Source: Maribacter sp. PR1
GTDB taxonomy: Bacteria > Bacteroidota > Bacteroidia > Flavobacteriales > Flavobacteriaceae
NCBI RefSeq assembly: GCF_028464145.1
Contig: NZ_JAQPCG010000002.1
Span: 1 to 64,000, forward strand
Length of the DNA stretch: 64,000 nt
Reading direction: 5' to 3'
Shown here: positions 9,143 to 20,196 of the stretch, in pieces
Numbering within the stretch: the first letter of the stretch is position 1
Layout of the letters: the number at the start of each line of letters is the position of its first letter
Position numbers and translations under genes: made by a program
Notes under the pieces: model-generated
The model's input: only the letters and a program-made list of their open reading frames with translations
Databases searched by the model: none
What the model was told of the DNA's origin: nothing

Positions 9143-9823
9143 ATGCGAAGTACCGCTGTCCTTATTTTTGCCAACTCCTCTGAGGAAGAATTACAATATA
9201 AGCCCATACAACATGGAGAGGTGCTTTTTGATGCCTTAACGAAACAAACCCTGAAAAAAGTTGAAAAAACCTCCTTATCCTATTTCCATATAACAGAAGA
9301 GCAACAAGAAGGAAGTTCATTTGGGGAACGTTTTACCAATGCCATCCAAAATGTTTTTGATCTGGGGTTTGAGAAGGTTATTACTATTGGCAACGATACT
9401 CCACACTTACGCTCAAAAGATATAAGGAACGCTGCAGCAGCCCTTATTTCAGGAAAAACGGTAATTGGCCCTTCCCTTGATGGAGGATTCTATTTAATGG
9501 GAATTCATAGGGATAATTTTGACCCTGACCATTTTGTAAATTTACCATGGCAACAAATTGGGCTATACAACGCATTGCTGCAAAATCTTGAAAGGAAAAA
9601 TTGTACTATTTATAATCTGCCTGTACGGAGTGATATAGATGATTTTCAGGATATTAAAACATTATCCAATTACATTAAATCGTTGCCCGTTACAATTAGG
9701 GCCATTTTAAACGTATATCTTCGAATTGCAAATAGCATCTACCTCTTTGTAAAAGAATTTTACACTACATTTTATACTGAACTCCCTTCTAATAAGGGCT
9801 CCCCTTTGTTGTTTCAAGTCTAA
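9143..9823 (+). CDS. TIGR04282/DUF2064-family nucleotidyl-sugar-type transferase (arsenosugar-associated)
   Basis: A 226-residue GT-A-fold protein of the DUF2064 family, which RefSeq names (from memory) the TIGR04282 arsenosugar biosynthesis glycosyltransferase. Visible motifs are GNDTPHL (about 94-100), which supplies the metal/nucleotide region, and GPSLDGGFYLMG (about 113-124), the family signature, followed by DIDDFQDI. The body matches the usual length of about 200 residues, with an extra tail of about 25. It is first gene of a six-gene co-directional locus that ends with the ArsS-like radical SAM enzyme at 17126, 63 bases before the SusC gene. The family has been found repeatedly near ArsM/ArsS, but its acceptor is not established. 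Confidence 0.75.
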   Translation: MRSTAVLIFANSSEEELQYKPIQHGEVLFDALTKQTLKKVEKTSLSYFHITEEQQEGSSFGERFTNAIQNVFDLGFEKVITIGNDTPHLRSKDIRNAAAALISGKTVIGPSLDGGFYLMGIHRDNFDPDHFVNLPWQQIGLYNALLQNLERKNCTIYNLPVRSDIDDFQDIKTLSNYIKSLPVTIRAILNVYLRIANSIYLFVKEFYTTFYTELPSNKGSPLLFQV

Positions 9824-9833
9824 CTGAAAATCG

Positions 9834-9853
9834 TGGGTTATGATTTTAACCCA
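9834..9853 (+). other. Stem-loop between the glycosyltransferase and SusC genes
   Basis: A 7-bp perfect stem TGGGTTA/TAACCCA with a 6-base loop lies in the 63-base spacer. It has no T-tract, so it is not a standard terminator; it could mark an mRNA processing or attenuation point that sets different levels for the receptor genes. Confidence 0.35.
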
Positions 9854-9886
9854 TATCAACTTTGAAACTAACACTTCCACTTCAAC

Positions 9887-12800
9887 ATGAAATATGTAAT
9901 GTTGGTCATGACATTGTTCATGACTGCTTTAATTTTTGCGCAAAACACCGTTTCGGGTAGAGTAACCGATGCGGAGGGCGTAGCAATTCCCTACGTAAAC
10001 GTTTTACTTTCGGGAACTAATCAAGGAACCACTACGGATGAATATGGAAAATATACACTACAAGTAAATGATACTAGTGATATGTTGATCTTCTCCGTTT
10101 TGGGTTTCGAAACCCAAGAGGTTGCAATAAATAACGCTTCAATACTAAATATTTCCCTACTGGAATCTTCCGAGCAACTCGATGAAGTTGTTCTTACAGC
10201 CCTAGGTCTTAAAAGGGAGACCAAAGAACTGGGCTATGTGGTCCAAAGCTTAGATGCACAGGGAGTGACAGAAGTAAAAGCCGTTAACTTTTTGGACAAT
10301 CTCTCCGGGAAATTAGCTGGAGTGACCATTAATCAAGGGCCCACCGGGGTAGGTTCCACCTCAAAGATCACTATAAGAGGCGAAGCTTCCTTCTCCAACA
10401 ACAACCCACTTTTCATTGTTGATGGTGTACCTATTAATAATAACTCCGTTTTTAATTTTACGAACGAAGCAGCAGCAGGTTTTCAGGAGATAGATTTTGG
10501 AAATGGAGCCATGGAAGTTAATCCGGATGATATTGCAGAGGTCTCCGTTCTAAAGGGCCCGAGTGCAGCCGCATTATATGGAACCAGAGCTTCGAATGGC
10601 GTCATTATTATTGAAACTAAAAGTGGCAAAAACACCAAAGGGTTGGGAATTAGCTACAATACCAGCTTTTTTGTAGATACTGCCTTTCAATTGCCCGATT
10701 TTCAAAATGAATACGGCCAAGGTAACGCAGGTGAGTTTGCCTTTGTTGATGGGCTTGGTGGTGGCACCAATGATTTGATTTCCTACAGCTGGGGGCCCCG
10801 TTTGGATGTTGGGAACTTAATACCACAATTCGACAGCCCCGTTACCCTGTCCGATGGAAGCTCTGTTAGAGGAGGCGATACAGCACTTTATAACGGCCTG
10901 CCAATTACCCCTACTCCCTTTGAATCACACCCTGATAACTTAAAAGATTTTTATAGGACCGGGACTACTTTCATTAACAATATAGCGATAGGGTCAGGTT
11001 TTGATAAAGGCAATTATAGGCTTTCCTTCACAGATTTAAGGAGCGAATCCATTATTCCAGGTGTGAACTTAGACAGGCAAACCATTAATGCCCGTTTGAG
11101 TTTTACCCCTATTGAAAAATTACGAATCAACACGACGATAAACTATGTGAATTCCAAAAGCGATAACCGACCATCCAACGGTTATGGGTCCGAAAACGTA
11201 AATTACTCTTTAGTAGGCTGGGGGCCAAGATCCCTGAACATGGAAAGCCTCAGAGATTATTGGCAACCCGGATTGGAAGGCGTTCAGCAGTATTCCTTTA
11301 ACTATACTTATTTTGATAATCCCTTTTTCATCATGTATGAAAACAGGAACTCCTTTAATAGGGACCGTATCTTTGGTAACGTCTCCGCGAGTTATGATAT
11401 AACGGATCATTTAACCGCAGCTATAAGATCTGGAATGGATTATTCCAGTGAACTTCGTCAATTAAGGCGCGCTTTTAGCTCCAATAGGTTTCAAAACGGG
11501 GGTTATGCGGAGCACGAAGTTTTCTTTAGGGAAATCAACACAGATTTCCTTTTAAACTATACCAATCGTTTTAGCGATGTCAGCATCGATTTTAGCCTGG
11601 GAGGAAATAGATTGGATCAAAAAGCGTTCACCTCACAGTCACAAACAACAAGTTTGGCCCAGCCTGGAATCTTTAGGCTCTCGAATGCAGCATCACCGAT
11701 TGAGGTATTTGAGTTTGAATCGAATAAAAGGATCAACAGCTTTTACGGACTACTAAAACTAGGTTACAAAGATTTTCTGTTTTTAGATGTGACTGGTAGG
11801 AATGATTGGTCCAGCGCATTGGCCACACCATTTTCAGTCGACAATACGTCTTTCTTTTACCCTTCGGTCTCCTCTAGCTTTATTCTATCAGAGATTGTAG
11901 ACGTTCCACAGTTTATTTCTTTTGCAAAACTCCGTGCGAGTTGGGCTCAGGTGGGTAATGATACCAACCCTTATCAAACCACTGGGGCTTTTGTTGCCCA
12001 GACCCCTTTTAATGGTCAGCCTACTTTTAGTAATCAAAACACGATTGCCAACCCGAATTTGAAGCCAGAACGAACATCTTCCTTTGAGGTTGGGGCCGAT
12101 TTACGATTTTTTGGCGATCAGTTGCGTTTAGATATTTCCTATTATAATGCTTTGACCGAGGATCAAATTATTTCTCTGCCCATAGGAATCTCTTCCGGTT
12201 ATACCCAACAAGTGGTCAATGCAGGCAGTGTGCGTTCCAAAGGTTTGGAGATTATTACGGGAATCTCCCCCATAGTCTCAGAAAATTTCTCTTGGAACAG
12301 TACCCTGAATTTTAGTGCTAACCGAGCCATTGTTGAGGATTTACCCCAGGACGATGGCCGCTTGACCCTAGCATATTCAAGAATTTACGACAGTCAAAAC
12401 CAAACGGTATTTTTACAGGTTGAAGAGGAAGGTCGTGTAGGCGACCTTTACGGTACGGGGTATTTAAAAAATGATGACGGTGATTTTATACTAACTAACG
12501 AGGGTAGGTATATCCCTGATAACAATTTACAAAAATTGGGCAATTATAATCCTGATTTTATGTTGGGTTTCAACAACCAATTCAATTATAAAAATTGGAA
12601 CCTTGGCTTTCTATTGGATTGGCGCCAAGGAGGAATTATCGTATCACGCACAAGAGCTTTGGGTAATGTTGGCGGTCAATTGGCAGAAACAGCTTTTCGC
12701 CCAGAAGAAGGTATTGTCCCAGAAGGTGTTGTGAATACAGGAACCTTGGAGAGTCCCGTATTTGTGCCAAATACGGTCGCCGTATCTCCAGAGAGCTACT

Positions 12801-13090
12801 ACCGCCAATTTTATGATCGGAACCACGAGGAAAACAATACGTATGATGCTTCTTTCTTAAAGTTACGTCAGTTCTCAATTGGGTACACCTTTAAAGACCT
12901 TTCACTATTTAACCAAGATGCGGCCTTAAACATTTCACTCATTGGGAGGAATCTTTTTGCCTTAACGGAAAACCCCCATTTTGACCCAGAGCAATTGTCC
13001 GTACAAGGCCAAGGTTTTATAGGCGGTGTTGAGGATATGTCCTATGCTACTTCACGCAGTATTGGATTAAAGGCCGGATTTAATTTTTAA
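9887..13090 (+). CDS. SusC/RagA-family TonB-dependent outer-membrane receptor
   Basis: A 1067-residue outer-membrane transporter. After a signal peptide (1-18, ...IFAQ) comes a carboxypeptidase-regulatory-like domain (about 20-95, VSGRVTDAEGVAIPYVNV), then the plug (about 110-245) with PLFIVDGVPI and the SusC signature LKGPSAAALYGTRASNGV, then a 22-strand-type barrel to the terminal Phe. Length is normal. It is followed by its SusD partner with a TAATG stop/start overlap. SusC/SusD pairs import oligosaccharides, peptides or other large molecules with TonB energy. No glycoside hydrolase or polysaccharide lyase gene lies beside this pair, so a glycan substrate is not indicated; the neighbours point to an organoarsenical or related small compound (inference). 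Confidence 0.95.
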   Translation: MKYVMLVMTLFMTALIFAQNTVSGRVTDAEGVAIPYVNVLLSGTNQGTTTDEYGKYTLQVNDTSDMLIFSVLGFETQEVAINNASILNISLLESSEQLDEVVLTALGLKRETKELGYVVQSLDAQGVTEVKAVNFLDNLSGKLAGVTINQGPTGVGSTSKITIRGEASFSNNNPLFIVDGVPINNNSVFNFTNEAAAGFQEIDFGNGAMEVNPDDIAEVSVLKGPSAAALYGTRASNGVIIIETKSGKNTKGLGISYNTSFFVDTAFQLPDFQNEYGQGNAGEFAFVDGLGGGTNDLISYSWGPRLDVGNLIPQFDSPVTLSDGSSVRGGDTALYNGLPITPTPFESHPDNLKDFYRTGTTFINNIAIGSGFDKGNYRLSFTDLRSESIIPGVNLDRQTINARLSFTPIEKLRINTTINYVNSKSDNRPSNGYGSENVNYSLVGWGPRSLNMESLRDYWQPGLEGVQQYSFNYTYFDNPFFIMYENRNSFNRDRIFGNVSASYDITDHLTAAIRSGMDYSSELRQLRRAFSSNRFQNGGYAEHEVFFREINTDFLLNYTNRFSDVSIDFSLGGNRLDQKAFTSQSQTTSLAQPGIFRLSNAASPIEVFEFESNKRINSFYGLLKLGYKDFLFLDVTGRNDWSSALATPFSVDNTSFFYPSVSSSFILSEIVDVPQFISFAKLRASWAQVGNDTNPYQTTGAFVAQTPFNGQPTFSNQNTIANPNLKPERTSSFEVGADLRFFGDQLRLDISYYNALTEDQIISLPIGISSGYTQQVVNAGSVRSKGLEIITGISPIVSENFSWNSTLNFSANRAIVEDLPQDDGRLTLAYSRIYDSQNQTVFLQVEEEGRVGDLYGTGYLKNDDGDFILTNEGRYIPDNNLQKLGNYNPDFMLGFNNQFNYKNWNLGFLLDWRQGGIIVSRTRALGNVGGQLAETAFRPEEGIVPEGVVNTGTLESPVFVPNTVAVSPESYYRQFYDRNHEENNTYDASFLKLRQFSIGYTFKDLSLFNQDAALNISLIGRNLFALTENPHFDPEQLSVQGQGFIGGVEDMSYATSRSIGLKAGFNF

Positions 13091-14535
13091 TGATGAAAAC
13101 GATGAAAAAAATATATAGTCTAATGCTTTTGCTTGTTGCAGGAGGCTGTACACAGGATTTTGAGGAAATCAACACGAACCCCAATTCACCTGTAAGTGTC
13201 CAACCCAGCCTATTGCTAAGGCAGGTAATCTACGATTATGGAGAGCAAATGTCCTACGAGGGTTTTACAGCGGGGAATCTCTTGGGACAATATACCACAG
13301 CCTTAGATTTTAATCTGTTTGATAGGCATAATTTAAAATCGCCTCAATTGGGAGGAAATCCTTGGCCTATATTCTATAAAAACCTCAGGGATAACGAAAT
13401 TATATTGAATCTATCCCAAGAGAGTCCCTCCTTCAAAGTATATGAAGGCCCAGCGAGGATTTTGAAAGCCTATATGTCAGCGGCATTGACAGACTTGTTC
13501 GGTGATGTCCCGTACTTTGAAGCTTTTAAGGGGGATAAGGGTACGGTAACTCCTGTTTATGATAGCCAAGAGTCCATTTATATGGACGATAATGGGATTT
13601 TAGATAATCTAACTAAAGGAATATCGGCCATTCAAGCATATGACGGTGTTATTTCATTGGAAGGTGATATCCTATTCGAGGGCGACTTAGAAGGTTGGGT
13701 TCGTTTCGCCAATTCACTTAGGATTAAATATCTCATGCGTATATCGAACAAAATGGACGTAGCTACGGAACTACAAACCCTTTTCAACGACGCAAATTAT
13801 ATTCAGGACAATAGCCAAAATGCCGTCTTTGATTTTACGGGTGGTGCGCCTAATAATTTTAGATTGGCCCGATTACGCATTGGGGATTTCAACAATTTTG
13901 TAATGTCCGAAACCATGGATGAAATTTTAACCGATTTTGAAGACCCCCGAATTTCAAAACTTTTTAGACCTATTTCCAATAGCGATACGGGCGAGGAGTA
14001 TAATGGGCTCCTGAATGGTATCGATGCTTCTTCCACGCCTGTAAATTTATCGGACTATTCCTTGGTAGGAACCATTTTTAGGGAAAACACAGGGGTGTTG
14101 GATGCCAATTTTATGACCAGTATGGAAACCCATTTTCTTTTGGCCGAGGCCGCACAAAAAGGTTTTATTACTGCTGATGTAAATCAGTTATATGAAACCG
14201 GGGTTGCCGAGGCCTGTGCCTATTGGCAGGTTGAGCTTCCCAGTGGGTATCTAACTGGTCCCGGAGCTTTGGAAAATGGTGACCCTCTGGAAAATATCCT
14301 TTCCCAGAAGTGGATTGCCAATATGATTAATGGGTATGAAGGTTGGATAGAATACAGAAGAACGGGTTACCCACAACTAAAAACAATATCAGCAAGTCTA
14401 AATAACGATTTGATTCCTGTTCGGATGCCTTATCCGGCTGAGGAAGAAGCCCTGAATAATTCCAACTACACTAAAGCCGCCGAGAATACCGACGGCAACA
14501 GTATTAACGTAAACGTCTGGTGGGACGAAGAATAA
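13090..14535 (+). CDS. SusD/RagB-family surface lipoprotein (SusD-like_2)
   Basis: A 481-residue outer-membrane lipoprotein that forms the lid of the SusC channel. The start overlaps the SusC stop by one base, so translation is probably coupled. A lipobox ends at LVAGGC (Cys near residue 20), followed by TQDFEEINTNPNSP, the hallmark of the SusD-like_2 family (PF12771), and TPR-like helices (about 100-220). An alternative start at Met5 (MKKIYS) would give a cleaner signal peptide. The ligand is unknown. The family includes many pairs of unassigned specificity that are not in polysaccharide-utilisation loci. Confidence 0.93.
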   Translation: MMKTMKKIYSLMLLLVAGGCTQDFEEINTNPNSPVSVQPSLLLRQVIYDYGEQMSYEGFTAGNLLGQYTTALDFNLFDRHNLKSPQLGGNPWPIFYKNLRDNEIILNLSQESPSFKVYEGPARILKAYMSAALTDLFGDVPYFEAFKGDKGTVTPVYDSQESIYMDDNGILDNLTKGISAIQAYDGVISLEGDILFEGDLEGWVRFANSLRIKYLMRISNKMDVATELQTLFNDANYIQDNSQNAVFDFTGGAPNNFRLARLRIGDFNNFVMSETMDEILTDFEDPRISKLFRPISNSDTGEEYNGLLNGIDASSTPVNLSDYSLVGTIFRENTGVLDANFMTSMETHFLLAEAAQKGFITADVNQLYETGVAEACAYWQVELPSGYLTGPGALENGDPLENILSQKWIANMINGYEGWIEYRRTGYPQLKTISASLNNDLIPVRMPYPAEEEALNNSNYTKAAENTDGNSINVNVWWDEE

Positions 14536-14542
14536 AATAGAA

Positions 14543-15883
14543 ATGAACGATATGTTATTTTGGCAGTGGGCTTTGATTGTAGTATCTAGTTTGATACTGT
14601 TTTTCTTGTCTCCATTTGCAAAAAATACCAATCAGTTTTTTAATGCTGTTCAGAAGAGAAAAGCACCCAATACCTTGGTATTAATGGGCAGTTTGGTCAT
14701 TTCATGGATATTTGCCAAAAGCATAACCAATGCTGCGAACTTAGGGCTGGATTATGGATTTGTGGGTGGGGTTGCCTATGCGGCCTATTATGTATCCTTC
14801 GCCGTTGCAGGAATTGTTATTTATAGAATGCGTGTCTATGGTAACTATTCAAGTATACATCACTTCCTTACTTCAAAGTTTGGAAAGATGGCCGTAATGG
14901 TATTTTCTGTTTTGATAGCTATCCGATTATTCAATGAAGTGTGGAGCAATACCATGGTTATTGGTTCCTATTTTGGAGAAGTGGGAACGAGTACGTATTA
15001 CTGGAGTATCTTGGTATTTACCTTGCTTACTTTGGCCTATGTTATTAAAGGAGGAATGAGCAGCTCTATTTTTACGGATGTAGTACAAATGGTATTATTT
15101 TCCATCCTGCTCATTGTAATTCTATATACCATTTACGGTCCAAAAACTGATTTCACGGTCAAGGAGACCCTAAATTCTGGGGTTTGGTCCTTTGAAATGG
15201 GGTTAAATCTTTTATTTGCGGCACTAATTCAGTCCTTTAGCTACCCTTTTCATGACCCTGTTTTAACGGATAGAGGATTTATCAGCACCCCAAAGGTTAC
15301 CTTAAGAAGCTTTTTATGGGCCAGTTTGGTTGGAGCTGTTTGTATTGTTTTGTTTAGCACGATCGGGGTTTATGCACAATCCAGAGGAATTGTTGGTCAG
15401 GCTGCTGTTGAGGTGGGCAAGGCATTTGGTATTATCACCTTGTTGATTATCAATTTTATTATGATCACTTCAGCGGCATCAACATTGGATTCCACGTTTT
15501 CGTCGTTTTCCAAATTAATTGCGGTGGATTTAAATCTTGGCAATACGCTAAGCATAGGAAGGTGGTCCATGGTATTCATTGCGGTACTTGGTACGATACC
15601 CGTTTTTTTAGATGCTGAAATACTATCCGCTACGACCATAAGCGGAACCATGGTCATAGGGCTTACTCCAATCTTCATTTTTTGGAAAGGAAAGGTGCCA
15701 AAAATCAGTTTTCATCTAAGTGTTATTTGCGGACTGATATTTGGTCTTTTCCTGGTTTTTAATCGGTTCCCTGAACAATTCATATTTACGACCGGTAAAT
15801 ATGCCGATTTACTTTGGATCAATGTTTGGGGCATCTTATGTTGTACACTGTTATACTTTATACCTAAATGGCTAAAAAAATAA
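14543..15883 (+). CDS. Sodium:solute symporter (SSS family)
   Basis: A 446-residue inner-membrane protein with about 13 hydrophobic segments, shaped like SSS-family transporters that move sugars, sialic acids, nucleosides or organic acids with Na+. The N-terminal NTLVLMGSLVISWIFAKSI and the central YPFHDPVLTDRGF are conserved-looking loop segments. It starts 7 bases after the SusD stop and overlaps the next gene by 16 bases. The arrangement SusC, SusD, symporter suggests that the outer-membrane cargo is carried whole across the inner membrane. Substrate not predictable from sequence. Confidence 0.85.
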   Translation: MNDMLFWQWALIVVSSLILFFLSPFAKNTNQFFNAVQKRKAPNTLVLMGSLVISWIFAKSITNAANLGLDYGFVGGVAYAAYYVSFAVAGIVIYRMRVYGNYSSIHHFLTSKFGKMAVMVFSVLIAIRLFNEVWSNTMVIGSYFGEVGTSTYYWSILVFTLLTLAYVIKGGMSSSIFTDVVQMVLFSILLIVILYTIYGPKTDFTVKETLNSGVWSFEMGLNLLFAALIQSFSYPFHDPVLTDRGFISTPKVTLRSFLWASLVGAVCIVLFSTIGVYAQSRGIVGQAAVEVGKAFGIITLLIINFIMITSAASTLDSTFSSFSKLIAVDLNLGNTLSIGRWSMVFIAVLGTIPVFLDAEILSATTISGTMVIGLTPIFIFWKGKVPKISFHLSVICGLIFGLFLVFNRFPEQFIFTTGKYADLLWINVWGILCCTLLYFIPKWLKK

Positions 15884-17073
15884 AACATATTGGAACAAAG
15901 AAGGGGAAACTACTTCTATTTGGCGGTGTATATAGCAATTTACAGGCGCTGGAAAAGCTAATTTCAATAGCTAAAGAAGAGAGTATCCCTCCGGAAAATT
16001 GTATCTGTACGGGAGACATTACAGGATATTGCGCCCAGCCGGAAGAAACTGTACATACGTTTAAAAATTGGGGAGCTTTGAGTATTGCCGGTAATGTTGA
16101 ATTACAATTGGCCAATGACAGTGAGGAATGTGGATGTGATTTTAAGGCTGGTGGACGTTGTGACAGTTTTTCCAAAATGTGGTTTCCATATACAAAAATG
16201 AAATTGTCCGAAGAATCCCTGAAATGGATAGGCACTATACCCGAAAATATCAGTTTTGATTATGCCGGAAAAAAAATAACGGTAGTGCACGGTAATTATG
16301 GCAACGTATCCGAATTCGTATTCAAATCCAATGCCCAAGAAAGCAAGGAAACTTGTTTAAAAGCTACCCATAGCGATGTGGTGATTGCCGGACATTGTGG
16401 ACTTCCTTTTCATCAACGCATAAAGGAAAAATTATGGATAAATCCTGGGGTAATAGGGATGCCCGCGAATGATGGTACATCTAGGGTTTGGTATGTTCTT
16501 ATGGAGGATACAGAAGAAAATCTATCCTATTCCCATAAATCCTTTGAATATGATTTCCAGGCCGCTCAAAGGCTTATGTACCAAAACCATTTGCCCGAGG
16601 AATATGCGGACACCTTAGCATCCGGGATATGGGATAATATGGAAATACTTCCAGAAGTAGAAAAAATGGGACAAGGCATCCCTATTGCATTCGATAATTC
16701 AAAAAATAAAAATATACCACCTAAAACACAGAATAAAATGGCAGACTCGTATTATGACCCAAAAGATTTAAGAAAGTTTGGTAAAATAACCGAATGGAGC
16801 GAAGAACTAGGAACCAAGTTTTTTGATTACTATGGAAAGGTTTTTGAAGAAGGGGCCTTGAGTGCCCGAGAAAAATCCCTGATTGCCCTGGCTGTTTCCC
16901 ATGTTGTAAAATGTCCTTATTGCATCGATGCCTATACGAAGGACGGTCTACAAAAAGGAATTACCAAAGAAGAAATGATGGAAGCCGTACACGTTGGAGC
17001 AGCAATAGAAAGTGGTGCTACCTTAGTGCATGGAGTCCAAATGATGAACAAATACAACAAACTTTCTATGTAG
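15868..17073 (+). CDS. Fusion: Cys-rich degenerate metallophosphoesterase + carboxymuconolactone-decarboxylase-like (peroxidase-like) protein
   Basis: A 401-residue two-domain protein. Residues about 12-235 have a calcineurin-like phosphoesterase layout, but usual metal ligands are replaced: the DxH motif reads GGVYSNLQAL, GNH reads GNVE and GHTH reads GHCG, while TGDITGY and VVHGN are kept. It carries clustered cysteines (45, 47, 55, 88, 90, 98). Residues 291-401 form an AhpD/carboxymuconolactone-decarboxylase domain with CPYC (Cys349, Cys352) and a distal His in ATLVHG, like the arsenosugar-associated peroxidase-like family (TIGR04169, from memory). Met291 sits exactly where a stand-alone peroxidase-like protein would start, so two ancestral genes appear to have fused. 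It overlaps the symporter by 16 bases and precedes the ArsS gene by 52. The function is inferred to be thiol-based redox chemistry or binding of a soft element. Confidence 0.8.
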   Translation: MAKKIKHIGTKKGKLLLFGGVYSNLQALEKLISIAKEESIPPENCICTGDITGYCAQPEETVHTFKNWGALSIAGNVELQLANDSEECGCDFKAGGRCDSFSKMWFPYTKMKLSEESLKWIGTIPENISFDYAGKKITVVHGNYGNVSEFVFKSNAQESKETCLKATHSDVVIAGHCGLPFHQRIKEKLWINPGVIGMPANDGTSRVWYVLMEDTEENLSYSHKSFEYDFQAAQRLMYQNHLPEEYADTLASGIWDNMEILPEVEKMGQGIPIAFDNSKNKNIPPKTQNKMADSYYDPKDLRKFGKITEWSEELGTKFFDYYGKVFEEGALSAREKSLIALAVSHVVKCPYCIDAYTKDGLQKGITKEEMMEAVHVGAAIESGATLVHGVQMMNKYNKLSM

Positions 17074-17125
17074 AATTTCGTATCTACAATTAAAAGGAAG
17101 TTTTAATACTGAAAAACAAAAAATT

Positions 17126-18181
17126 ATGGCAACAAAGTCGTTGAAGGCGCAAGGAGATGAATTAGCAGTATCTAATAAACAATTGGAAATTTTGAACGGA
17201 GGTATTTTTGCAGATGGTGAGCTTCCCTATTTCAAGGATAAAATCGACCAAATTGGTCAATTTCCATTACGACCAAAAAAATTGGAAGTGCTACAAATTA
17301 ACGTGGGATATATGTGCAATCAGGTCTGTGAACATTGCCATGTGGATGCAGGGCCGGACCGTAAGGAAATCATGACCCGGGAAACCATGCGGCAATGTCT
17401 TGAGGTCATTAAAAACACGGGTGCACATACCTTGGACTTGACCGGCGGGGCTCCAGAAATGAATCCTGATTTTAGATGGTTTGTGGAAGAGGCTGCCAAA
17501 GCGGGCATACAAGATTTTATAGTTCGGTCCAATTTGACCATCATTAGGGCCAATAAAAAATATTATGACTTACCCGATTTCTTCAAAAAACACAATGTAC
17601 ACGTGATTTCTTCCATGCCACATTGGACGCGAGGAAAAACGGACAAACAAAGAGGTGATGGCGTTTTTGATAAATCGATAAAAGCGTTGCAGGAATTGAA
17701 CGAACGAGGCTATGGTATGCCAGAGAGCGACTTGCGCTTAGACCTCGTTTACAACCCATCGGGAGCCTATTTGCCAGGAGACCAGGCCGCCATGGAAAAG
17801 GATTTCAAAAAAGCATTGAAAGAAGATTTTGGAATACAATTCCATAATTTGTTCGCGATTACAAACCTCCCCATTGCCCGATTTTTGGACTATTTGATAG
17901 CCTCTGAAAATTACGAGGATTATATGTACGCCTTAGTAGAGGCTTATAACCCTTCCGCAGTGGCCCATGTTATGTGCACCAATACGATTTCAGTGAGTTG
18001 GGATGGTTGGTTGTACGATTGCGATTTCAATCAAATGCTCGACTTGAAAGTTGCTAGTAAAATCAAACATATTAAAGACTATAATGAAGATATTTTAAAC
18101 GATAGAAATATCATTATTTCACAACATTGCTACGGCTGCACTGCTGGTGCGGGAAGTAGTTGTCAGGGAACGGTGGCGTAG
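17126..18181 (+). CDS. arsS: ArsS-type radical SAM enzyme (arsenosugar biosynthesis family)
   Basis: A 351-residue radical SAM/Cys-rich protein of the TIGR04167 type. The 4Fe-4S/SAM motif CxxxCxxC is Cys64, Cys68, Cys71 (CNQVCEHCH), followed by the SAM-binding LTGGAPE. Further cysteines lie in AHVMCTN and LYDCDFN, and the C-terminal tail reads CYGCTAGAGSSC. Some relatives encode selenocysteine in this family; here all positions are Cys and no in-frame TGA is involved. In characterised systems ArsS attaches the 5'-deoxyadenosyl group of SAM to dimethylarsenite, starting arsenosugar synthesis. Last gene of the locus; it converges on the bestrophin gene with 40 bases between stops. ArsM, the methyltransferase that would feed it, is not in the window. 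Confidence 0.85.
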   Translation: MATKSLKAQGDELAVSNKQLEILNGGIFADGELPYFKDKIDQIGQFPLRPKKLEVLQINVGYMCNQVCEHCHVDAGPDRKEIMTRETMRQCLEVIKNTGAHTLDLTGGAPEMNPDFRWFVEEAAKAGIQDFIVRSNLTIIRANKKYYDLPDFFKKHNVHVISSMPHWTRGKTDKQRGDGVFDKSIKALQELNERGYGMPESDLRLDLVYNPSGAYLPGDQAAMEKDFKKALKEDFGIQFHNLFAITNLPIARFLDYLIASENYEDYMYALVEAYNPSAVAHVMCTNTISVSWDGWLYDCDFNQMLDLKVASKIKHIKDYNEDILNDRNIIISQHCYGCTAGAGSSCQGTVA

Positions 18182-18221: not shown

Positions 18222-19277
18222 TCAGAACTGTGTATGATGTTTTTCCGGATACTGCATTGGAATACTATCGATGGGCTCCCCTAAATTTTGTCTTAGATCA
18301 ATCTCTATTCCCCTTGCAATCGTGGAAATAGGTACATCATTGGCAGAACCTTCAAAGGGGTTTTCTCCAGTACGTCCAATACGTTCCATGGTGTGAAATA
18401 TCCAGGCAACGATAATATAAAAGGGAATCGTTGCCCAAACGAAGAATTTACCGATAACCGGATTCGATGTAGCAATTTCATTTCCAATTTCCCCAAATTG
18501 TGGTACAAGCGCCAAGGGAAGAATCAATATAAAGACCCACATAAAGTAATGGTTTAGTGTAGCAAAATGCCTAGGATATGGGAAATTCTTGATTCTTTCA
18601 CTTTGTCCTTGGAGCGTAAATAGTTCTTGCAAAACCCCTTCGAGCTCTAAAAAAGAAAATTCCCAAATTAACCCTTTCTCTTTCAGTTTTCTAAGGTGGT
18701 GCGATTGCAAATAAAGCAATGCTGTCTGTTTGTTGGCTTTTTGCGAAATAGAATCCAATTCATTTTTAGAAATATACGGCTGGAGATCATTTTCTAATTT
18801 ATTTTCCATTTCTGGTGGAAGTAATCCCCATTCGCGATCTGTCCTTTGCTTCAATATGGTTTCCCAAGGTTTTGTTGTTCGCATAGCATAACGCAATGCA
18901 GTCATCCAAGCAATATGCCGATAGGTCAATATCTTAATTTCCTGTTTTATTTGTTCTTCATCTACAGTTGTTTGACAGTATTCACTTGTAATCATATCCT
19001 GTAAAAACATCCCAAAGGTTCTGGAAGTGTTTACTATGCCTACCCAAATCTTTCGCGCTTCCCAAATTCGACCATAGGAAGAGTTGTTTTGAAACCCTAT
19101 AACAAAGGCAACTGCCGTTCCTATTAAGGCCAACGGTGTCCAAGGTATTTTTAGCCATTGCAAATCCAAAAAGAAGTAACCTGAAATGTAAATAACTATT
19201 ATCACTAAAAACAGCAGGGTTTCGAATCTGGTCCACAGGACCATTTCTAAAATGGAGTACTTTTTTTTCGTATGCAT
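18222..19277 (-). CDS. Bestrophin-family ion channel
   Basis: A 351-residue membrane protein of the bestrophin-like family (formerly UPF0187, YneE-like). It has paired N-terminal helices (about 18-37 and 43-62), the family stretch VIGFQNNSSYGRIWEARK (about 60-77) and a C-terminal helix pair (about 225-280). Bacterial members form pentameric anion or sodium channels in the inner membrane. It is divergent from the TetR gene at 19579 and shares an upstream region with TetR-type operators, which makes it the likely regulatory target. Confidence 0.88.
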   Translation of the reverse strand: MHTKKKYSILEMVLWTRFETLLFLVIIVIYISGYFFLDLQWLKIPWTPLALIGTAVAFVIGFQNNSSYGRIWEARKIWVGIVNTSRTFGMFLQDMITSEYCQTTVDEEQIKQEIKILTYRHIAWMTALRYAMRTTKPWETILKQRTDREWGLLPPEMENKLENDLQPYISKNELDSISQKANKQTALLYLQSHHLRKLKEKGLIWEFSFLELEGVLQELFTLQGQSERIKNFPYPRHFATLNHYFMWVFILILPLALVPQFGEIGNEIATSNPVIGKFFVWATIPFYIIVAWIFHTMERIGRTGENPFEGSANDVPISTIARGIEIDLRQNLGEPIDSIPMQYPEKHHTQF

Positions 19278-19558: not shown

Positions 19559-19578
19559 TTAACCCAAATCTTGAAATC

Positions 19579-20196
19579 ATGGAGAAAACATTAAAACGCA
19601 TGGCTACCATGCAACGTATGCAGACCACTGGATTGGAATTATTTTATAGTAATGGCTATTACAATACCAGTGTTGATGATATCTTGAAAAAACTCTCGCT
19701 TTCCAAAGGTGCCTTTTATTATCATTTTGAGTCCAAGGAGGATTTCTTTATACAAATCATTCAAAACCTCTTGGCCAGAAAAATCTACAGTGTGTTGATT
19801 GAACCTATAGAAGGTCATGATAATCCACTTGAACGTATTGAAGATTGCTTTGATGACGCCCTGGAAACCGCGGTTCATAACGAAATGGATTTTGGTTGTG
19901 TTCTTAATAATTTCTTGACCGAATTTCGCGGAAAGGACCAAAAAATCATGAAACATCTATTTGATATATTTTCCATTTGGGAAGTAAATCTAGTTTCGGC
20001 TTTACAAAAAGGAAAGTTCAATGGATATGTGGATCGACATGTGGATTGCGAAGCCGCAGCCACTTATTTAATTAGCTCTTATTTTGGTGTAAGGACTTTA
20101 ATGGTAGGCACTGCCCCCAGTGCAAGGAAATATAGATTTATGAGTCAATTGAGAATGTACCTTAAATCATTGGAGCCTAAGGCGATTGCGGTATAG
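19579..20196 (+). CDS. TetR/AcrR-family transcriptional regulator
   Basis: A 205-residue one-component repressor. The helix-turn-helix domain is about residues 7-55, with YNTSVDDILKKLSLSKGAFYYHF, the classic TetR signature (I..LSKGAFYYHFESKEDFF). The C-terminal helical ligand-binding part has no recognisable specificity. An ATG at 19537 in the same frame would add 14 residues but would place the operator inside the coding region, so 19579 is preferred. It probably represses itself and the divergent bestrophin gene. Stops of this gene and the GT9 gene are 4 bases apart. Confidence 0.88.
   Translation: MEKTLKRMATMQRMQTTGLELFYSNGYYNTSVDDILKKLSLSKGAFYYHFESKEDFFIQIIQNLLARKIYSVLIEPIEGHDNPLERIEDCFDDALETAVHNEMDFGCVLNNFLTEFRGKDQKIMKHLFDIFSIWEVNLVSALQKGKFNGYVDRHVDCEAAATYLISSYFGVRTLMVGTAPSARKYRFMSQLRMYLKSLEPKAIAV

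Follow-up and report, generated by a model that had tools for sequence, protein, structure and literature searches.

An ArsS-linked SusC/SusD and sodium symporter block in Maribacter sp. PR1 and its possible role in the acquisition of methylated arsenic

Arsenosugar biosynthesis is associated with a gene set made of the arsenite methyltransferase ArsM (NF038099), the radical SAM enzyme ArsS (TIGR04167), TIGR04169, TIGR04282, and PNP. ArsS is stated to adenosylate arsenic during arsenosugar formation (PMC12159101, citing Cheng et al. 2021). A 2025 review describes the ways in which small organoarsenic species enter cells as largely unknown, in regard to cells after human intake (PMC12608789). 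No literature recognised by title or abstract, with subscription journals largely uncovered, joins uptake by SusC/SusD pairs (SusCD) or by sodium/solute symporters (SSS) to arsenosugar genes. Here, we describe a block of six genes, including ArsS, a SusCD pair, and an SSS protein, found at positions 9143 to 18181 of a 64,000-nucleotide stretch of Maribacter sp. PR1 (contig NZ_JAQPCG010000002.1, positions 1 to 64,000), hereafter called the window.

Several described systems resemble this block in part. It shares ArsS and TIGR04169 with the arsenosugar set, the only memberships of that set that the block reaches at curated cut-offs, and another contig of the genome carries its TIGR04282 and PNP-like genes. 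Unlike in the canonical set, however, ArsM was not detected in this genome, and the genes of an importer are integrated. SusCD pairs serve in the capture of scarce nutrients and, as in SusCD polysaccharide utilisation loci, the pair heads a same-strand run in which a Na+ symporter would be the inner-membrane step. The block differs from these loci in being linked to ArsS and in that none of its six proteins matches a carbohydrate-degrading family in Pfam or NCBIfam, in agreement with a first-pass annotation, made from the letters and open reading frames (ORFs) alone, that saw no carbohydrate-active hydrolase. The symporter gives signals of the SSS (SLC5-type) family, which includes carriers of small anions, but scores under both curated cut-offs. 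Finally, the fifth protein has the predicted fold of SapH/YfcE-like metallophosphoesterases, from which it departs by having lost half of the metal site and gained four invariant cysteines.

The six genes and their linkage to ArsS

All six ORFs were found on the + strand. The first (9143-9823) encodes a variant DUF2064/TIGR04282 paralogue, which we call DUF2064v (PF09837, 76.1 bits; TIGR04282, 103.2 bits for a cut-off of 134). It is followed by a SusC-type TonB-dependent outer-membrane transporter (9887-13090; TIGR04056, 582.5 bits, cut-off 368.25) and an adjoining SusD-like surface lipoprotein (13090-14535; SusD-like_2, PF12771, 298.9 bits), and this SusC subfamily match with its lipoprotein constitutes a SusC/SusD pair. 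The next gene (14543-15883) codes for the SSS-family Na+/solute symporter, which serves as the marker of the block; it is an outlying member, with 22.1 bits for PF00474 (cut-off 22.8) and 36.4 bits for TIGR00813 (cut-off 184), and PF00474 is carried in part of its listed relatives. The fifth ORF (15868-17073) joins a degenerate metallophosphoesterase domain (residues 1-285, 15868-16722; Metallophos_2, PF12850, 41.9 bits, cut-off 27) to a CMD/AhpD-like TIGR04169 domain (16738-17073; 196.8 bits, cut-off 120). The last gene (17126-18181) encodes ArsS (439.2 bits for TIGR04167, cut-off 300), in which the cysteines of the radical SAM motif C-x3-C-x2-C (C64, C68, and C71) are invariant among 14 aligned sequences. 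The intergenic gaps are, in order, 63, -1, 7, -16, and 52 bases. The tight same-strand packing described in the first-pass annotation is thus borne out by the coordinates, and Pfam and NCBIfam agree with its labels for SusC, SusD, the outlying SSS protein, the metallophosphoesterase/TIGR04169 fusion, and ArsS.

The linkage was analyzed in 199 genomes of the family, sampled at nearly one per genus. ArsS was found over its cut-off in 148 of them. The symporter was found in 30, in one copy each and, apart from the window's own, at 67-77% identity; no further matches were obtained in these 199 genomes up to an E value of 1e-10. All 30 symporter genomes carry ArsS, and in 29 of them the two genes are no more than 7.3 kb apart; the remaining genome (G087) holds an intact block about 180 kb from ArsS (L142). 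The block precedes ArsS, as in the window, in seven genomes and follows it in 19. Three others (G002, G121, and G168) possess only the symporter and the phosphoesterase-like gene, located after ArsS, while SusCD precedes the symporter in the other 27. TIGR04282 is present over its cut-off in 30/30. In relatives, the canonical run consists of TIGR04169, ArsS, a rhodanese-domain protein (NF045521), an over-cut-off TIGR04282, PNP, and ArsM (NF038099).

The symporter was also seen in 13 of 80 named ArsS loci (taken with flanks of up to 10 kb, some shortened by contig ends), including those of Maribacter, Flagellimonas, Winogradskyella, Algibacter, Cochleicola, Marinirhabdus, and Flavobacterium. 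A phylum-wide draw of 395 genomes gave nine symporters, of which seven were new: two in the family and five in four other families, the latter with 55-60% identity to that of the window. ArsS was over its cut-off in these seven genomes as well and lay beside the block in four (G279, G477, G368, and G379); in G267, G506, and G556, all from other families, the block is found elsewhere in the genome. Altogether, ArsS is present in 37/37 symporter genomes and within 7.3 kb in 33 of them. The first-pass annotation had asked whether SusCD and SSS genes co-occur with ArsS in relatives; they do in 29 of the 30 family genomes and in four of the seven further ones, and the pair and symporter are far from absent at the ArsS loci of close relatives. 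The gene block is real and conserved, and it is functionally suggestive.

Both SusCD pairs and SSS proteins are widespread, and the block could be an ordinary importer of an unrelated nutrient whose linkage to ArsS arose through descent and operon drift. The four genomes in which it lies away from ArsS (G087 and the three from other families) would fit this explanation. However, those same four genomes all possess ArsS, two main layouts round ArsS exist (seven before, 19 after) with linkage in 33/37, and the window's close relatives and distant families agree. Together with the ArsM association presented below, these observations make an unrelated nutrient quite improbable.

ArsM in genomes carrying the symporter

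ArsM was not found in the genome of the window: the best NF038099 score was 22.3 bits, and NF008823 was unmatched at E values up to 1e-15. In the family sample, NF038099 is present in 116/199 genomes, all of which carry ArsS, but its distribution is uneven, with 15/30 symporter genomes versus 101/118 symporter-less ArsS genomes (p=8.9e-5). Among the 32 ArsS genomes lacking NF038099, the other ArsM family, NF008823, was over its cut-off in 10/17 symporter-less genomes versus 1/15 symporter genomes. This single match (G121:C1:464811-465596) holds one internal stop and is possibly a gene being lost. When any ArsM was considered, the counts were 16/30 versus 111/118 (p=4.9e-7). After a completeness filter applied by hand, which dropped 18 of the 148 genomes (17 less than 90% complete, and G057 for contamination), they were 16/29 versus 98/101 (p=9.6e-8). 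It should be noted that G121 was counted as ArsM-bearing; if it is counted as lacking, p = 1.6e-8.

A similar pattern was observed in named genomes, where any ArsM was found in 7/13 with the symporter versus 35/37 without it (p=0.002). This set comprises 50 of the 80 genomes, namely all but one of those with the block (L110, on a cut-off contig) and mostly isolates without it, and it partly overlaps the first set: four of the 13 symporter genomes are shared, and the rest were checked in part. In Winogradskyella, ArsM is absent from three of the four species with the block (L068, L069, L070, and L086) and present in all four without it (L074, L101, L104, and L107). Isolates that carry the block with ArsM undetected include W. 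thalassocola DSM 15363 (L086/G589) and W. vidalii HL634 (L068/G583). As for the distant symporter genomes, ArsM is absent from G506 and G368 (61 and 43 bits) and present in G379 and G556, and G267 has a match below the cut-off (188 bits).

Parsimony on a 96-genome tree, built from ArsS, TIGR04169, TIGR04282, and PNP and including 67 symporter-less genomes (among them all three complete ones without any ArsM), gave 10 losses of ArsM. Eight of these fall on lineages inferred to bear the symporter, which represent 6.2 of 25.1 branch-length units (about 25%; binomial p=4e-4). The two remaining losses are those of G063 and of the pair G046 and G098. We also tested whether DUF2064v, the first gene of the block, could be the cause of the link with ArsM. 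This explanation was rejected, as ArsM is lacking in 1/8 symporter-less genomes with DUF2064v versus 2/59 without it (p=0.32).

The block might, alternatively, import a non-arsenic co-substrate for a later step of the pathway, such as an acceptor (glycosyl or lipid) or a precursor that contains phosphorus or sulfur. In many genomes the block stands in one gene run with ArsS, rhodanese, TIGR04282, and PNP, and DUF2064v resembles the pathway's own enzyme, both of which would suit such a role. A selective loss of ArsM with ArsS and TIGR04282 kept would not be predicted by it, however, and we regard a co-substrate as unlikely.

A proposed route for methylated arsenic

The substrate of ArsS is a dimethylated trivalent arsenical, and PNP acts at a later step. 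Since ArsM appears dispensable while ArsS and TIGR04282 are kept with the block, the cargo would join the pathway between ArsM and ArsS, and it is most likely a ready-methylated arsenical such as dimethylarsinate (DMA). We propose that the block serves to acquire organoarsenicals for ArsS and thereby makes ArsM dispensable, with DMA as the first-choice cargo; we are evenly divided between this explanation and all others taken together. A scarce arsenical, methylated beforehand, would cross the outer membrane by TonB-driven transport through SusC and SusD, and the SSS protein would carry it over the inner membrane together with Na+. The phosphoesterase-like protein, which bears cysteines and is translationally overlapped with the symporter, would then receive it, perhaps reducing it or passing it on as a thiolate. 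ArsS would adenosylate the arsenical, and the conserved PNP and TIGR04282 steps would lead towards an arsenosugar. A cell with the importer would no longer need its own ArsM, which might be why ArsM is so often missing. Besides DMA, another dimethylated species easily converted for ArsS could be the cargo, and the three genomes that carry the symporter and phosphoesterase-like genes without SusCD fit a small molecule. We infer the direction of transport from what is known of these protein families, and the cargo and the role of the phosphoesterase-like protein likewise.

Several observations weigh against this proposal. NF038099 is retained in half of the family's symporter genomes, and four genomes (G046, G098, L124, and L125) have ArsS and no detected ArsM, with no symporter seen. 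The trees rest on the cluster's own genes rather than on species markers. An independent-pairs test gave 3.1 versus 0.2 pairs, in the expected direction, with too few pairs (median p 0.25), and it was not significant on a tree of ArsS only, whose resolution is low (6 starred among 76 inner branches). In profile comparison, the closest of the solved symporters was a choline transporter (9rws_A, E value 1.1e-8), aligned over one part only (residues 13-194). Finally, at least two genomes (G001 and G129) with a related SusCD-containing cassette, described below as type C, lack ArsS over its cut-off; this kind of importer is therefore wider than ArsS and need not serve it. Solved symporters gave no cargo: the profile match is partial, and a search with the single sequence gave no solved chain at E values up to 10.

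The phosphoesterase-like gene lies beside the symporter in 37/37 genomes, usually with a small overlap (16 bases in the window). Its domain, for which the structure prediction is of good confidence, has a fold like that of SapH (3qfm_B, E value 5.7e-14) and 3rqz_C (E value 6.6e-13). VPS29, a known non-catalytic member of the metallophosphoesterase fold, is also among the fold matches. The two-metal ligand set of catalytic metallophosphoesterases (D-x-H, G-D, G-N-H, and G-H-x-H) was not found, the D and H of motif I being replaced by G20 and Y22 (G-x-Y) in all 37 symporter genomes. GNH is changed to GNV or GNI in all 37, and the second histidine of GHTH is replaced by G in the alignment to 3rqz. 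The ligands D50, N76, H141, and H176 of one metal site are retained and might allow some residual activity. Four cysteines (C55, C88, C90, and C98) are invariant in 37/37 proteins over five families, and C45 and C177 are conserved in 32/37. In the window, the C55 codon is at 16030-16032 and those of C88, C90, and C98 (C-x-C-x7-C) lie at 16129-16161 (+). A protein with these cysteines would be well suited to thiol chemistry with arsenic.

The fused C-terminal domain is poorly predicted, with a pLDDT below 50 for most of residues 287-401 (mean of the predicted structure, 74.1). The phosphoesterase-like and TIGR04169 domains form a single ORF in five of the 30 family genomes (G000, G075, G056, G164, and G176) and also in G368, while most of the relatives seen encode TIGR04169 separately. 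Both domains are present in 105 of the 120 relatives listed out of 2,893. These relatives include a partial protein (P0104) filed under the brown alga Ectocarpus sp., which probably comes from an associated bacterium. The first-pass annotation had inferred a system that imports and remodels organoarsenicals or a related thiophilic nucleoside-like compound, noting that brown algae are rich in arsenosugars, phosphodiester forms among them. The link between the symporter and the absence of ArsM favors its import part. The loss of the motif I ligands speaks against the remodelling part, an active phosphodiesterase on phosphodiester arsenosugars being unlikely given the metal ligands lost. As for a brown-algal arsenosugar as cargo, the gene-loss pattern better fits a molecule used by ArsS, such as DMA.

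DUF2064v and exchangeable import cassettes

The genome G063 carries ArsS but lacks both kinds of ArsM as well as the symporter, and another importer occupies the same spot of its ArsS cluster, which speaks for the proposal. The genes between DUF2064v and rhodanese code for a TonB-type receptor, a binding protein for solutes, a pair of permeases, an ATPase, and a protein of the radical SAM type. The binding protein of this type was found in 11/397 family genomes, and the corresponding ABC cassettes were classified into two types. Type B contains a TonB-type receptor (six cassettes; L269-L273 and L170), and type C contains SusCD (five cassettes; L274-L278), with SusC 42-44% and SusD 38-41% identical to those of the window. 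DUF2064v heads 11/11 of these cassettes. In G672, the type B cassette lies between neighbours 81-99.7% identical to the genes that border the ArsS block of G010, a congener (L131, L272). All five type C cassettes lie at the window's chromosomal site, with the TetR gene (75-78%) and a heptosyltransferase-like gene (56-58%). DUF2064v thus heads exchangeable cassettes that combine SusCD or a TonB-type receptor with either the SSS-phosphoesterase pair or an ABC transporter. Eight genomes with ABC-type cassettes (G630, G793, G693, G672, G718, G666, G814, and G719) lie outside the scope of the ArsS search.

Type C cassettes end in a nucleoside-hydrolase family protein (PF01156) in the two loci scanned (L274 and L278), followed in L278 by an S-methyl-5-thioribose-kinase-like protein (103.7 bits, cut-off 275), a composition that leaves a riboside as a possible cargo of type C. 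Accordingly, the cargo of the window's block could also be a finished organoarsenical riboside, either an algal arsenosugar or an arseno-nucleoside, that is salvaged so that the freed arsenic re-enters at ArsS. A sugar-like molecule would suit SusCD and an SSS symporter, and the ABC importer, hydrolase, and kinase-like protein of type C would fit a 5'-modified riboside. An arsenosugar would, however, bypass ArsS too, yet ArsS is kept in 37/37 genomes and TIGR04282 in 30/30, an argument that is partly trivial where the genes share an operon. In addition, the block of the window has no nucleoside hydrolase or kinase, and motif I of its phosphoesterase-like protein is lost. Overall, a riboside seems rather unlikely to be the cargo of this block.

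Returning to the import of methylated arsenic, these cassettes suggest a broader scenario. The block may be the first recognised dedicated system for the acquisition of methylated arsenic, with flavobacteria treating organoarsenic as worth importing against the gradient through exchangeable, DUF2064v-marked cassettes, ArsM being dropped by lineages that acquire the importer, and these coming to depend on arsenic methylated by neighbours or algae. We advance this tentatively, as a scenario somewhat short of even probability. If true, genes could be named for organoarsenical uptake and ArsS genomes without ArsM would be explained; cross-feeding of methylated arsenic in the sea would be implied, as would the evolution of a dependency for a toxic element.

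DUF2064v itself had been annotated as the TIGR04282 glycosyltransferase, an assignment that does not hold. Its match spans only positions 63-189 of the profile, and it scores below the cut-off because the N-terminal third lacks a match. When 54 variants were aligned with 110 canonical proteins, the KTRL loop was missing from the variants. Moreover, the over-cut-off TIGR04282 gene of this genome is on another contig (G000:C18:429286-429837, 207.8 bits), adjoined by the rhodanese and PNP genes, and the first gene of the block was thus ruled out as the arsenosugar TIGR04282 enzyme. A second, sub-cut-off TIGR04282 match corresponding to DUF2064v occurs in 26/30 symporter genomes of the family, that is, in 26/27 with SusCD and in 0/3 without, and DUF2064v goes with outer-membrane receptors in the related cassettes as well.

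The C-terminal motif NKGSP of DUF2064v, encoded at 9791-9805, is near-invariant as N[KR]GSP across 57 genes (that of the window and 56 others), and DUF2064v of type C cassettes ends in LRGPP in its place. A role as a DNA or RNA element was ruled out, as the codons vary freely in the 57 genes and conservation is at the protein level. An Rfam scan of the window detected two tRNAs and no other RNA family. In G693 (L271), rhodanese, TIGR04282, and PNP directly follow a type B cassette that contains a radical SAM gene of its own; ArsS is not among the adjoining genes. A different outer-membrane barrel (PF25183, 1037-1039 aa) was seen near ArsM or DUF2064v in three ArsS clusters (L054, L064, and L078).

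Downstream of ArsS, the window encodes a TetR-family protein (19561-20196, +; PF00440, 48.7 bits), a possible regulator, whose gene keeps its place at the chromosomal site in several relatives. Between ArsS and this gene lies a bestrophin-family gene (18222-19277, -), which, among the loci scanned, is present only in the window's stretch.

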